From Polynucleobacter sp. MWH-UH24A (GTDB taxonomy: Bacteria > Pseudomonadota > Gammaproteobacteria > Burkholderiales > Burkholderiaceae), in assembly GCF_018687475.1 (NCBI RefSeq), contig NZ_CP061292.1:1302001-1366000 (forward strand): a stretch of DNA of 64,000 bases. The letters are read 5' to 3'. Of this stretch, positions 55,123-60,326 are shown piece by piece; positions within the stretch are counted from its first letter, which is position 1, and each line of letters opens with the position of its first letter. Made by a program: the position numbers and the translations under genes. The notes below the pieces were generated by a model. The model had not been told where the DNA came from, did not search any database, and saw nothing but the letters and a program-made list of their open reading frames with translations.

Positions 55123-56184
55123 TTACTTCATCGCGACAGTATTGCTCTTCTCAGCAGGCTTTGGAGCGACGCGTGGTGCTGGCGTGCCTGTCAAGAATGG
55201 ATAATCTTTAAGCATTGAAACTCCATAAAGAGGTTTATAAGCTCCCTGATGGCAGGTTGCGCAATTCGCTTTCGCTACATCCCCTTCAGGCCCCAATCGA
55301 TGGGCCGGAAATACATTGGTGATGGGCACCATGTAATTGTTATTGATATCACGTGCCATGCGAATGCCATACCAAGCTGTCATACGCTGCGGAGGGCTTT
55401 GTGACCACTCGGGCATCGAGCGGGTATTGTGGCAATAAGCGCAGTTCACTCCCAACGAGGTCGACATATGCACCATCAAGCCAAATACCTTTTCGGTATC
55501 CTGAATACTGTTCTTATTGCCTGTCGGTAAAGCGGTGGGCCCATTCATACGAATGTTCTCCGCTTTTAATAAGTATGGGGTAAATGGGTCATAGGGTAAA
55601 TCGCTCCCACCAACCGATGCGGAAGGCGTATTTTGACCATTCTTACCGCTTAAGAATCCACTGCCCTGCGGCTTGGCTGGATCGGTAAACCAAACGTTTT
55701 GTGGAATATTGTTACCGCGGTGGCAGGTATAACAGGTCACTCCAGTCTCTGCGACGTGTGATTTCCATTCAACGTTAATGCGTTGGGTCATCTGGATCAT
55801 CTTGCGCGAGACAATTTTTGTGTAATTGGCGTCCTCTGCAAAATTCGCGACGTTATGGCAGTAAGCGCAGCCCTGCTCAGGCGCAACCCAACTGGTCATT
55901 GCCACCATAAAATTCGTAAATTGCGCAACGCTCAGGTTTCCTAAAACCTTGACGTTCTTATAAACGGCTCCTGCTTTGGGGCCATTAGGGTCAGCAGGAA
56001 TTCCTGCAGGGACCGCATTCTTTTCGGCCTGCGCATCTAAGGTACGAGGGTTGTAAACCATCGCCATACCGGTGCCCCGAAATCCATTCTGTACCGATTC
56101 GATGGGTGGGCGCTCACACGCCGTCAGAACGAACGTACTGCCGATGAGAGCAGCGATGCTCAATATGCGTTGAATTGAGTTCAT
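55123..56184 (-). CDS. pufC: Reaction centre tetraheme cytochrome c subunit
   Basis: 353 residues. Lipoprotein signal with TACERPP. Four CxxCH sites are all intact: CAYCHNVANF, CYTCHRGNN, CAYCHNTRSM and CATCHQG. Axial Met candidates precede them (for example VAMTSWV, IQMTQR). It donates electrons to the oxidised special pair from the periplasm. Last gene of the puf operon; its place means there is no pufX after pufM. Confidence 0.96.
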   Translation of the reverse strand: MNSIQRILSIAALIGSTFVLTACERPPIESVQNGFRGTGMAMVYNPRTLDAQAEKNAVPAGIPADPNGPKAGAVYKNVKVLGNLSVAQFTNFMVAMTSWVAPEQGCAYCHNVANFAEDANYTKIVSRKMIQMTQRINVEWKSHVAETGVTCYTCHRGNNIPQNVWFTDPAKPQGSGFLSGKNGQNTPSASVGGSDLPYDPFTPYLLKAENIRMNGPTALPTGNKNSIQDTEKVFGLMVHMSTSLGVNCAYCHNTRSMPEWSQSPPQRMTAWYGIRMARDINNNYMVPITNVFPAHRLGPEGDVAKANCATCHQGAYKPLYGVSMLKDYPFLTGTPAPRVAPKPAEKSNTVAMK

Positions 56185-56193
56185 GATTGCTCC

Positions 56194-57192
56194 TTATTTG
56201 GCGACGGGTGGAGGTGGCACGAATGTCGCTGCTGGATCAACTGTGGGGATGCTATACACATCAGGGTATGCTGGTGCAACCCCATGCTTGACTGCCCACA
56301 AGTACCAGTTATCAACCACAGTACCCGTTAATAAAATTCCGATTCCACCTGTCAGTGGTACCAATACGGCAAACCACCAGGCCCAACGGTGAATGGACTC
56401 CATCGTGGCATTAAAGCCCATGGTCCATCTCCAAAATAGTCCGGCACGCTCCGATGCAGTTCCGCGATCGACAATTTGTTCAATCTCGCGCTCACCACCA
56501 TATCGACCAACCGCTAAGATGGTTGCGCCATGCATTGCAAATAACAGCGCTGATCCATAAAGGAAGGCAATCGAGAGCATATGGAATGGGTTGTAAAACA
56601 AATTACCGTAACGCAAAGAGAATGCAGCGGTCCAATCGAGGTGCGAGAAGATACCAAACGGTACGCCCTCACTCCAACTTCCAACTAATAATGGTCGAAA
56701 GAATCCCAAGACCAGGAACAACCAAATTGCAGAGAGGAAGGCCCATGCGATATGCGTACCCATGCCAAGCGCAACTGCGCGTCGGTAGGTGCGCCACCAC
56801 CACAACAAGACCGATGCGGTTAAGAATGCACCAGCCATCATCCACCAACCACCCTCAGCGAGTGGCATATTTAAACTCAAGCCATGCTTGGGTAACGGTG
56901 GATCGAGCGATAACCAAAACAGTTGGCGCACAAACTGGATGGGATCCCAGTTCACCGAGGCTAACATGTTCCAGCCAATAATCTGAAAGCCAATCATGCC
57001 AAAGAATAAGGATGCAATCCCAATCGTTCCTAAATAAATAGGACCAATCTGCGCATTGCCTAAACGTCCAAATAAATGGACTAAAAATGGTTTGCCAATA
57101 CGCTCACGCTCATCCTTTCTGGGATTAAGTGGTGAGCCATGATGCGGTTCAGCGACAACCTGAACCTGAGTGAATAAATTTTGATAGTCCAT
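56194..57192 (-). CDS. pufM: Photosynthetic reaction centre M subunit
   Basis: 332 residues with five membrane helices. Landmarks are [40 protein letters not shown] and [20 protein letters not shown], then PFHML (special-pair His region) and [20 protein letters not shown] (iron ligand His). It lies 21 bp after pufL. Confidence 0.97.
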
Positions 57193-57213: not shown

Positions 57214-58038
57214 TTATGACCAAATGGGGAGGTTTAACCACCAACCCCACCACTCTGGCCAACCACGAGTCCAAAATGGTCCACTAATGACAATGCAAAC
57301 TGCGCTCCAAAATACTGCAGCTAAGGCTAAGAACAAGCCGAGTCGGTGAATACCCAAAGTGCCGACGGAGTAGCCAATCAAATCCCGAAAGAAGGTGTCT
57401 TCATGTTCGGGGGTTTTAACAAACTCGCCCTTTTGCGGATTCGTTGACGACAACACAAGGGCGCCATGCATGGCAAGCGCGAGAGTTGTCGTGAAAAATA
57501 AGGTGATCGCAATCATGTGCGCGGGGTTGTAATGAAAATGTAGGTATTGATAGCCAACGTTTGAGACCCAATCAAGGTGACTCAAGATGCCGTATGGGAA
57601 CCCATGACCCCAAGCGCCCATTAAAACGGGGCGAATCACAACCAATGTGAAATAACCAAAGATCGCAACGGAGAAGGCAAACGGTACATGAAAGCCCATA
57701 CCTAATTTGCGACAGATCTCCACTTCACGCAGTGCCCAAGACCCAAATGCGCCTAAGGCACAAATTGTGATCAACTGCCATAGTCCACCTTCCATCAGTG
57801 GTGCAGGTGCCAAGCCATACTTTAAATCGGGTGGGGCAATATTAATTTGCCACAAGTTCCATGTGGGTCCTTGCGATGCGCCCCACAAAATGAGTGCAGT
57901 GCCTAAAAAGGCAAAGAAGATCGTGGTGATACCAAAAAATCCGACATAAAAAGGGCCTACCCAAAAGTCGAATAAATCTCCGCCAACCAGGGTTCCCCCT
58001 CGTACTCGGTACTTTCGTTCAAAGCTGAGCATGGCCAT
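57214..58038 (-). CDS. pufL: Photosynthetic reaction centre L subunit
   Basis: 274 residues with five membrane helices. Landmarks are [52 protein letters not shown] (special-pair His) and [12 protein letters not shown] (iron ligand). Closes [10 protein letters not shown] long stem-loop lies just before it in the pufA-pufL gap. Confidence 0.97.
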
Positions 58039-58058: not shown

Positions 58059-58099
58059 TGGTAGATAAGACTCGATGCGTGGTCAAGTCTTATCCACCA
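58059..58099 (-). repeat. Stem-loop between pufA and pufL
   Basis: Inverted repeat: TGGT(A)GATAAGACT pairs with AGTCTTATC(C)ACCA, 13 pairs with one mismatch, 13-base loop. It lies 21 bp before pufL and has no T run, so it is more likely an RNA stability element than a terminator, as known for the pufBA 3' end in Rhodobacter. Confidence 0.75.
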
Positions 58100-58117: not shown

Positions 58118-58321
58118 CTACTTTGCTGCTGGTGCTGCTGGTGGGGTTGCAGAACCCGTACCTGTTTTTGCTTTGTACTGGGTTTGACTTAAACCATCTA
58201 ACCAGTTAAAGCGCACGGTGCTTAGCAGAATCAAGTGAATCATTGCTGCTAAACCGAACAGGAAGATTCCTTGAATAGCCATAGCCCGTAATGGGTCATA
58301 TAGTTTCCAAATTCTCCACAT
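58118..58321 (-). CDS. pufA: LH1 antenna alpha subunit
   Basis: 67 residues: MWRIWKLYDPLRAMAIQGIF, membrane helix with His in AAMIHLILLST that binds bacteriochlorophyll, then NWLDGL. The C-terminal tail GSATPPAAPAAK is Pro/Ala-rich. AGGAG precedes the ATG. Unusually, it does not follow pufB directly but the small gene at 58332-58556. Confidence 0.95.
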   Translation of the reverse strand: MWRIWKLYDPLRAMAIQGIFLFGLAAMIHLILLSTVRFNWLDGLSQTQYKAKTGTGSATPPAAPAAK

Positions 58322-58331
58322 GGTATTTCTC

Positions 58332-58556
58332 CTAAGTTAAATACGACATAAAGCTATAAACCGCAGACCTTACGCCGTCGATCATTGACTTCTCTTCGGA
58401 CCCTGGTAACCAGGATCTCCACTGACCTGGTAGGAACACAGTAAAGAGCGCGAGTACAAAACACACCACAAAACACAAGACAAAAATCGTCTTGAACGTG
58501 ATTGAATCGTTCTTCACGATCTCTTGTACCGAGTGGTTTAAATGGATATCTTTCAT
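58332..58556 (-). CDS. Unrecognised single-pass membrane protein in the puf operon
   Basis: 74 residues between pufB (30 bp upstream) and pufA (10 bp downstream). AAAGG lies 7 bases before its ATG. A polar N-terminus of 19 residues is followed by a membrane segment (residues 20-42, TFKTIFVLCFVVCFVLALFT), then PGQWRSWLPGSEEK and an amphipathic C-terminal helix, IDGVRSAVYSFMSYL. There is no His in the membrane segment, so it is not an antenna polypeptide. It does not resemble PufQ or PufX as I know them, although its layout recalls PufX. It probably acts on LH1 or its assembly. Confidence 0.8.
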   Translation of the reverse strand: MKDIHLNHSVQEIVKNDSITFKTIFVLCFVVCFVLALFTVFLPGQWRSWLPGSEEKSMIDGVRSAVYSFMSYLT

Positions 58557-58586
58557 ATCGTTACCTTTACGTTGTTACTTCCGATT

Positions 58587-58736
58587 TCAGTAGAACCAAG
58601 GACGCCAAGCCCACACGAGAATGTGAGCAATGACCGCTATTGCAGTAAACCCGACCAAACCTTGGACATAAAACTGGTGAAATTCTTTCGCCTCGTCGTC
58701 GGTAAGACCAGAAATAGAGCCTCTGTGATCACTCAT
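58587..58736 (-). CDS. pufB: LH1 antenna beta subunit
   Basis: 49 residues: [20 protein letters not shown], then the membrane helix with the bacteriochlorophyll His in [22 protein letters not shown] is a very strong ribosome site 5-10 bases before the ATG at 58736. An in-frame start at 58820 gives an extension with no antenna similarity and is rejected. Confidence 0.95.
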
Positions 58737-58757
58737 TCGAGATCCCTCCTTCAAAAT

Positions 58758-58771
58758 TAGCCTTTCGGCTA
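58758..58771 (-). repeat. GNRA stem-loop upstream of pufB
   Basis: On the minus strand TAGCC-GAAA-GGCTA, a 5-bp stem with a GAAA tetraloop, then ATTTTG and the pufB ribosome site. It could protect the 5' end of a processed puf message. Confidence 0.45.
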
Positions 58772-58803
58772 GCACCGCGCAAAGCCCGCGCGACAAGGGC
58801 ATA

Positions 58804-58819
58804 TGGCAGTGAACTGCCA
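58804..58819 (-). repeat. Perfect hairpin between bchZ and pufB
   Basis: TGGCAG-TTCA-CTGCCA on the minus strand: six-bp stem and tetraloop, 28 bp after the bchZ stop, no T run. It may mark the 3' end of a bchZ mRNA segment after cleavage. Confidence 0.45.
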
Positions 58820-58847
58820 CATTGGGGATGGATGAAAGTAGCCATGC

Positions 58848-60326
58848 TCATACTTTCTCCGATATCGGGTTAGGTACCTTCTCTTGCACAATCTCTGGAC
58901 AGGAAAGACGAACGCGCTCTGCGGTTACGCGCGCCTCTCCAAAGGATTCGGTATCGCGCTCGACGCGATCACGCAATTGCTTAGCAGCCGAGATTTGTAC
59001 CAGTACAGGTTGCTTCTGAACATAATTGGCGACCATGGTTTGGGCATCGCTATCCCACAAGAAAGCATTGGCCGCTTGACCGCGTGCTAGGGTGGAGTCG
59101 ACTTTATCCATCTCCGTACCCAAGGGCAAGATATGGAATAAAGCATCAAAGAGTCCATTACAAAACTCTTGGATTAAATAGGTTGCGCCGGCGTATCCCA
59201 TAAATGGAGTACCGGTATGGCGTCGAATGATTGCCCCAGGAAACGATGCGGGGATATACATTCCCTTGCCACCCGCTTCAGCTAAATACATGCGTTCGTT
59301 GTAGCTTCCGAAAAGTACTAAGGGTGCTTTCTCTTTGACTAATTGACGAATCGCTTCACTATCGGTTTTCTGACCAGGCTTGCGAGAAATAGCGAAGCTG
59401 CACGGCAATCCCATCTCTTCGCTTAAGAAATGCGAGACTCCACGCGTGTAGGTCTCGTTTGCAATGATCGCAAAGTTTGCTGTACCAAAAAAGTCTTGGG
59501 TCACCGAGCGCCATAGATCCCAAATCGGTTTAATCGTGGTGTGCTTCTCGCGCTCAATAAATGGTTCTGGATCAAGATCCAATAACTCACCCAATTTACG
59601 CAAGAACTTAGTCGTGCTATGCAGACCAATGGGCGCCTGTAAATAAGGGCGATCTAGGGCTTCGCAGAGCATGCGACCAAACTCGCGATACATGCAAATG
59701 TTGACATCGGCTTCGACCAAGCGGGATACATCGGCTAAGTGGCTACCGAGTGGAAACACCATATTGATCTCGGCACCTATTCCTTGAACTAGGCGGCGGA
59801 TCTCTGCCAAATCGCTTGGCATATTAAACGTGCCATATGCAGGGCCAATAATATTGACGCGGGGCTTCTCCCCTTCTTTACGGGGTTTACGTGCCGGCAC
59901 ATTCTTAATGCCATACTCCGACCATAACCAATACATGGCGCGGTTAGCGCACTGCCATTGGTCTTCATCAATCGTGCGCGGTAAGAAGCGAGCAATCGCA
60001 GTCCCTTCTGGAGTAACTCCGCCGCCAATCATCTCAGCAATTGATCCGGTCACAACCACCGCTGGCAAATCAGGATCCAATGTAGCGTGCGCGCGTTTCA
60101 TCGAACCTTCGGTGCCCTCACGACCTAATTGCTCTTCAGCCAATCCAGTAACCACGATCGGTAACTCATGCGGTGGCAGAGCATCGGTGTAATGCAACAC
60201 CGAGGTAACGGGTAAATTCTCACAGCCCACCGGACCATCGATCACCACTTGCAATCCTTTGATGGCCGTAAATACATATACGGCTCCCCAATAGCCGCCA
60301 GCACGATCGTGATCAATGACGTACAT
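58848..60326 (-). CDS. bchZ: Chlorophyllide a reductase subunit BchZ
   Basis: 492 residues, NifK-like subunit of chlorophyllide oxidoreductase that reduces ring B. N-terminal [40 protein letters not shown] (cluster Cys), [20 protein letters not shown] and [20 protein letters not shown]. Its ATG shares one base with the bchY stop (TGATG). Confidence 0.96.

Follow-up and report, generated by a model that had tools for sequence, protein, structure and literature searches.

What is the small gene that separates pufB from pufA in the puf operon of Polynucleobacter sp. MWH-UH24A, and what might its product do? The gene, called X here, lies in a stretch of 64,000 nucleotides (contig NZ_CP061292.1, positions 1,302,001 to 1,366,000; the window) of a 1.92-Mb genome made up of a single contig. 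We compared it with puf loci (numbered L) from the genus, the order and beyond.

Layout of the locus

On the minus strand the genes run bchX, bchY, bchZ, pufB, X, pufA, pufL, pufM and pufC, where bchX, bchY and bchZ are names we presume from the customary bchXYZ-puf order. The order from bchZ into puf is kept in the loci of relatives.

58848..60326, minus strand: bchZ, upstream neighbour (conserved order; name from the usual order)
58587..58736, minus strand: pufB, for an LH1 beta of the short type that ends in WRPWFY (NCBIfam pufB, E 3.7e-24)
58564..58568, minus strand: Shine-Dalgarno-like AAAGG of X (sequence; -3.9 kcal/mol)
58332..58556, minus strand: X, gene for a His-less LH1-beta-like protein, 74 aa, ATG start (ORF list and homologues)
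58437..58439, minus strand: Val40 codon of X, at the place of the bacteriochlorophyll-ligating His of beta subunits (alignment)
58338..58391, minus strand: C-terminal amphipathic helix of X, residues 56-73 (...AVYSFMSYL), its best-conserved part (alignment and AlphaFold2)
58118..58321, minus strand: pufA, LH1 alpha (NCBIfam pufA, E 1.5e-16)
58059..58099, minus strand: long intercistronic hairpin in the pufA/pufL gap (z -5.45; 0 of 200 shuffles equally stable)
57214..58038, minus strand: pufL (ORF list and PufL searches)
56194..57192, minus strand: pufM (about 33% identity to PufL, directly behind pufL)
55123..56184, minus strand: pufC, cytochrome with four CxxCH motifs (motifs in the translation; gene order)

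An earlier note on this DNA had described an extra 74-residue gene between pufB and pufA with gaps of 30 bp (pufB/X) and 10 bp (X/pufA), and the ORF list and the NCBIfam matches of both neighbours confirm it. Across 178 operons the corresponding median gaps are 29.5 and 10 bp. Hairpins that affect the stability of puf mRNA are known, and the one between pufA and pufL resembles them.

Three further observations concern the surroundings. The bchZ-pufB leader (58737-58856, minus strand) is predicted to form three stem-loops directly 5' of the pufB ribosome site; in the window these are no more stable than shuffles (z -0.31), and a similar run, with a small tetraloop hairpin last, is predicted in several of the 10 Burkholderiales leaders folded. 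A second LHC-family gene pair in the same genome, outside the window (C1:691396-691641, PF00556), may encode a peripheral antenna. Finally, Table 2 of PMC10037100, in the portion available, places ORF77 of Roseateles depolymerans (RD2015_RS05175) between pufM and pufC by locus tags; the window lacks a counterpart, because its pufM and pufC are only 9 bp apart.

Distribution and selection

X is a constant part of the operon within the genus. Among 186 Polynucleobacter genomes, 78 matched PufL, one of these only at PufM level; all 77 remaining puf regions were taken, and the 68 left after nine contigs that end too early were complete. Every one of the 68 has the order pufB-X-pufA. One copy of X is frameshifted (L031, genome G004), the sole broken copy seen there, and its pufB and pufA are open. 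No plasmid matched X, and a family-level search for PufL was positive in 12 of 398 genomes, all of them Polynucleobacter.

A less biased view comes from 399 Burkholderiales genomes, 46 of which, including the window's own, carry PufL; with one locus too short, the other 45 yielded 44 loci. The pufB-X-pufA order is present in 36 of these. Five loci lack X and have a long pufB (L173, L184, L187, L189, L200), and three from one genus (L174, L185, L190) carry a relative of X, termed Y, upstream of pufB. An inserted gene, which the earlier note had regarded as unusual for puf, is therefore ordinary among the sampled phototrophic members of this order. X holds its place in the 68 Polynucleobacter regions and the 36 loci of the order sample, and its profile matched none of the 38 PufL-less Polynucleobacter genomes tested (of 108 such), in a search that contained no positive genome; X queries do match the window's own genome (G000) in other searches. 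X is thus kept in the same place in most of the photosynthetic relatives examined.

Broader searches extended this range. A protein profile search with X at E 1 gave 282 proteins, of which 120 were listed, and a genome-contig scan confirmed 213 of 233 pattern matches, of which the best 80 loci were kept. The names on their records include Polynucleobacter, Rubrivivax, Roseateles, Rivibacter, Piscinibacter, Methylibium, Rhizobacter and Limnohabitans, and also Oxalobacteraceae, with a few plainly misassigned names of metagenome-assembled genomes among them. X lies between pufB and pufA in all 80, which were picked for carrying X and overlap with the other sets; it has the same place in Roseateles puraquae (L140) and Rubrivivax pictus (L147). 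On a PufL tree of 110 rows the best tree needs five changes of the X label; a single origin of X is possible, and the tree is compatible with gain as well as with loss.

Pairwise comparisons with dS between 0.1 and 1.2 gave median dN/dS values within the genus of 0.217 for X, 0.093 for pufB and 0.097 for pufA, and outside the genus of 0.457, 0.224 and 0.316. Ratios above 1 occurred in 18 of 638 X pairs within the genus and in 1 of 1209 outside. X therefore changes at roughly double the rate of its two neighbours, and this speed, with the frameshifted copy at L031, is what a decaying and functionless duplicate of pufB could have produced. That explanation is barely credible: the median ratios stand well under 1, residues of the C-terminal motif are invariant, X has its own Shine-Dalgarno site, and its place is kept in 68 of 68 and 36 of 44 loci. 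The substitution ratios indicate that X is a real gene under purifying selection.

Ancestry in the LH1 beta family

The X protein alone matches solved chains of LH1 beta type in a phmmer search (8z81_B, E 7.9e-06), and a profile of the broad X family matches the same chain at E 6.6e-15. At E 10, all 41 PDB matches of the X profile were LH antenna chains; one carries the name alpha, and the rest are called beta or alpha/beta. In hhalign comparisons, X matched the long PufB of the order at 99.8% probability (E 5.6e-30, 75 columns, spanning nearly the whole length), short PufB at 97.8% and PufA at 1%; with more sequences these values were 99.6%, 96.9% and 0.5%, and reversed-profile nulls gave 0.2% or less. 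The X profile also ranked every short PufB (184 of 184) above all 851 hydrophobic control ORFs.

Standard family models are less sensitive to X. PF00556 gave no match at E 10, and NF040862 matched 4 of 19 X proteins, with a best E of only 0.0022, so that the Pfam and NCBIfam family cut-offs were unreached. With PufB of the long type (PDB 8z81, 9m8m, 7xxf), X shares the transmembrane helix, the WRxW and LPGxE motifs, the tail and the location in puf; it differs in having a ligand His at neither place, in its variable N-terminus, in scoring under the family cut-offs and in being a separate gene beside a normal pufB. These comparisons make it almost certain that X is a divergent LH1-beta paralogue.

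The earlier note had set X apart from the antenna subunits; a view of X as unrelated to the antenna is wrong, given the profile match to long-type PufB and the antenna identity of every PDB match. A clear match to a described antenna family, named in the earlier note as contrary evidence, was found as far as ancestry goes, since the X profile matches LH chains and long PufB, though the ligand has been lost. A further proposal, X as the source of pufA2 in Gemmatimonas, is rejected in the available text of PMC12817894, and the X profiles show no PufA link either.

X very probably corresponds to ORFs that have already been named, with which we equate it by position. In the puf operon of Rubrivivax gelatinosus, according to the available text of PMC12817894, each antenna gene is preceded by an ORF, pufB by ORF1 and pufA by ORF2; the function of both ORFs is given as unknown, and ORF2 lacks the alpha His and has 10-15% identity to PufA2. 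Table 2 of PMC10037100, in its available portion, places ORF74 of Roseateles between pufB and pufA by locus tags. The counterparts of X would be ORF2 and, in Roseateles depolymerans, ORF74, both published, in the portions available, as ORFs of unknown function and without the LH1-beta link drawn here; no such link for an ORF at this position was found in the available parts of the open-licence literature. What is new here is the beta ancestry of X, its breadth in the Burkholderiales and the related family upstream of pufB that is described below.

Loss of the pigment ligand and retention of the tail

A joint alignment of 160 distinct X, 116 short PufB and 4 long PufB sequences locates what X has lost. 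The central ligand position is His in all 116 short and all 4 long PufB and in none of the 160 X, which confirms that the bacteriochlorophyll-binding His is absent, as the earlier note had stated; the window protein has Val40 there. In its stead X has Gln in 79 sequences, Val in 21, Leu in 17, Ser in 11, Lys in 10, Thr in 7, Ile in 6 and other residues in 9. The N-terminal His position is His in 4 of the 160. The Trp nine residues past the ligand position (of the WRxW motif) is kept in 155 of 160 X and the Trp six past it in 138.

Glutamine can ligate chlorophyll, as in plant LHCII. The frequency of Gln at the former His position and the retained Trp nine residues on would fit an X that is still an antenna polypeptide, holding bacteriochlorophyll through Gln, another residue or a backbone ligand. 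We regard this as very unlikely, as 72 of the 81 X without Gln have Val, Leu, Ser, Lys, Thr or Ile at this position, Val being the residue in the window, and the N-terminal His is so rarely kept.

The tail of X carries the motif WLPGAE..KSL..GVKAAVYTFMSHL, which resembles the C-terminal extension of long PufB. The tail is amphipathic, with a median z of 2.06 over 79 distinct tails and 95% of them above 1. An AlphaFold2 model places helices at residues 3-41 and 56-73 with a mean pLDDT of only 66, and a structure search of the PDB with this weak model gave no fold match. The single transmembrane helix and C-terminal amphipathic helix described earlier are thus supported, by the model at low confidence and by the tail statistics.

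Relatives upstream of pufB and the PufQ question

Beyond the order, the X profile matched 6 of 274 genomes of the class and 14 of 299 of the phylum. Matches outside the order were mostly long PufB with the His, together with small ORFs, termed U, directly upstream of pufB; U was seen there in genomes outside the order at L240, L242, L247-L251, L253/L258 and L254. U is common in Methylobacterium under the annotation 'hypothetical protein'; the search at E 0.1 gave 232 proteins, of which 120 were listed. Its ligand column holds Arg in 121 of 123 sequences and His in the other two, of the L242 type. At L242 (about 1390-1707) the U-type ORF upstream of pufB still has His at the ligand place and may be an intermediate.

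By hhalign, U is linked to X (97.2%, E 4e-11), to Y (98.9%) and to long PufB (95.9%), with 66% for short PufB. A profile built from the three Y proteins and run against 14876 ORFs at E 1e-3 recovered nothing but Y itself and, with lower scores (E 4.5e-05 to 8.4e-04), 21 ORFs that all stand at X positions, some operons being counted twice.

The lengths of PufB in the order sample suggested an exchange of tails, in which PufB lost its tail where X kept one. PufB ends 1-3 residues past WRxW in 39 of the 44 loci, including all 36 beside X, and has a tail of 27-28 residues past WRxW in the five loci without X or Y. The exchange fits this Burkholderiales sample and is not general, because several loci outside the order carry both U and a long PufB.

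The position of U raises the question of PufQ, as U occupies the place that pufQ has in Rhodobacter, which favours a role in biogenesis over a structural one. Rhodobacter PufQ, according to the available text of PMC5725709, binds ferrochelatase and raises bacteriochlorophyll. Like X, it is small, has a single transmembrane helix and a conserved C-terminal segment and is encoded in the puf operon; unlike it, X lies between pufB and pufA, with its relatives U and Y upstream of pufB, and there is no significant direct similarity between the two.

On the side of kinship, PufQ is the Pfam family (of 24736) met by most U, in 7 of the 43 scanned from the 120 listed (best E 0.0012), with the two U-PufQ scores shown lying below the family cut-off. 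With the PufQ profile, 108 of the 183 X rows and 64 of the 120 U rows scored above the 99th percentile of 851 control ORFs, whereas 2 of the 184 short PufB and none of the 72 PufA did so; these counts are only suggestive because the rows are related and not independent. Long PufB also exceeds this percentile, in 6 of 12 cases, so the signal may come from a shared beta-type tail. The control with the top score is an ORF that lies ahead of a pufB (L239), and it was exceeded by no X and by four U. Profile comparison gave 22-29% for X with PufQ and 7% for U with PufQ, and none of 19 X matched PF05398 at E 1. Direct identification of X as PufQ through Pfam, hhalign and score controls was thus set aside, leaving a suggestive link only.

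X could act as a PufQ counterpart, derived from beta and free of pigment, that directs the supply of bacteriochlorophyll and the assembly of LH1 from outside the finished complex, in one family with U, Y and PufQ in which PufQ would be a fast-evolving branch. The chain of matches from X through U to Y and long PufB, the place of U directly upstream of pufB and the PufQ-profile counts speak for it, as do the description of PufQ as a single-helix protein with conserved helix and C-terminus and the existence of purple bacteria without PufQ, both from the available text of PMC5725709. The low direct probabilities, the U scores under the Pfam cut-off, the controls and the place of X inside the pufBA message, unlike that of pufQ, speak against it, and we hold it as a tentative second reading. 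The fuller historical claim we consider somewhat unlikely: that X, U, Y and Rhodobacter PufQ form one pigment-free family, which arose when an LH1-beta gene was duplicated early in the evolution of purple bacteria and lost its ligand (Arg in U; Gln or others in X), and whose members are dedicated helpers that tie the supply of bacteriochlorophyll, or the assembly of the core, to the making of antenna. If such a single family exists, X would be the counterpart of PufQ in bacteria believed to lack it.

Translation and dosage

The Shine-Dalgarno sequence of X in the window is weak (AAAGG, -3.9 kcal/mol). Medians computed for 178 of 202 operons, with the X start taken nearest to 74 aa, are -8.65 for pufB, -7.7 for X and -7.3 for pufA; choosing the X start by the best Shine-Dalgarno, which favours X and was the reason for recomputing, gave -7.8 for X in the same operons. 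The site of X is weaker than those of both neighbours in 81 of the 178. The ribosome site of its own that the earlier note had assigned to X therefore stands across operons, at a strength like that of pufB and pufA, and is weak in the window itself. A low dosage of X due to a weak site, which we considered, holds in the window and not in general.

Transcript data from the available text of PMC10037100 concern the presumed counterpart. In Roseateles depolymerans, ORF74 is co-transcribed with pufBA as a major 1-kb message, and in a sigma-factor mutant the transcript left was 2.34% for ORF74, 0.71% for pufA and 1.09% for pufB, with ORF74 among the three loci with the greatest change. Parity of the ribosome sites, the hairpin behind pufA and this co-transcription fit a need for X in antenna-like amounts.

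Partners and possible role

Distances among 135 taxa correlate more strongly between X and PufL (rho 0.405) than between X and PufA (0.183) or PufB (0.218). Given PufL, the partial correlations of X fall to -0.001 with PufA and 0.049 with PufB, against 0.676 between PufA and PufB. At L193, L195 and L205 a different antenna pair is present (pufB ..AECQEFHKYY.., pufA MWRYWRIVDPRKAI..), and X still lies between the two genes. X appears not to depend on a particular type of antenna, because the partial correlations vanish and it is kept in these three loci. This lack of covariation and the presence of X beside other antenna types argue against a close fit of X to particular alpha or beta partners, and the former also speaks for the PufQ-type role. 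A contact with the reaction centre, or a more general role, is possible; the PufL distance also simply tracks ancestry.

The earlier note had recorded pufX and pufQ as absent, and the Pfam models bear this out: the best PF11511 score in the whole genome is 11.6 bits, away from X and under the cut-off of 25, and PF05398 has no match in the genome at E 0.01. It had also likened the layout of X to that of PufX. The transmembrane helix followed by an amphipathic helix is indeed common to both, as it is to other small proteins, and without a sequence match the likeness is not one of descent. In the available text of PMC5725709, pufX follows pufM (order pufQBALMX). X as PufX itself was rejected on sequence, with PF11511 below its cut-off and no PufX among the PDB matches of the X profile.

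The layout would also suit a slot like that of gamma chains or PufX, with beta ancestry incidental, in which the helix of X sits between neighbouring betas or at a gap in the ring and tunes quinone passage. Rhodopila has gamma-like chains between its beta subunits that are proposed to regulate quinone passage, and these run opposite to alpha and beta (available text of PMC9640540), a point against the comparison. Since the X profile matched no PufX, protein W or gamma chain in the PDB, and PF11511 stays under its cut-off in the genome, we think this slot unlikely.

Our best guess is that X is a subunit or an assembly factor of RC-LH1. We rank a structural beta-like role first, with a PufQ-type role close behind, and put the probability of a structural role in the mature RC-LH1 core, as a beta-like partner without pigment rather than a transient one, at about 0.48. 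Points against the structural role are the frameshifted copy at L031, the weak Shine-Dalgarno site in the window, the faster evolution of X and the weak AlphaFold2 model, besides the antenna comparisons and the place of U. The sequence shows X to be a paralogue of LH1 beta that lost both His positions and kept the beta-type transmembrane helix, the Trp of WRxW and an amphipathic tail like that of long PufB. X is translated off the pufB-X-pufA message through its own ribosome site, probably in antenna-like amounts, and would insert with the N-terminus inside and the C-terminus outside, as a beta subunit does. With no pigment ligated, it may then occupy a position like that of a beta subunit in or at the RC-LH1 core, the tail facing the reaction centre on the periplasmic side, and there it could finish or stabilise the ring or leave a passage for quinone.

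We know of no conserved, pigment-free LH1-beta paralogue encoded in puf that was recognized before. If X belongs to the core, the rings of many phototrophic Burkholderiales contain a beta-like component that carries no pigment. If it is instead PufQ-like, it bears on a question raised in the available text of PMC5725709, that is, how the branch between haem and bacteriochlorophyll is controlled in purple bacteria without PufQ.

The X profile found no PDB chain of X itself, and PufL and PufB scores, rather than organism names, suggest that the cores solved so far all come from species without X. In PDB 8k5o, an entry that PMC12817894 mentions, 16 beta chains are accompanied by chain 4, a single-copy, 105-residue chain with an LHC domain, which may be a precedent for a core with an unusual subunit of beta type.
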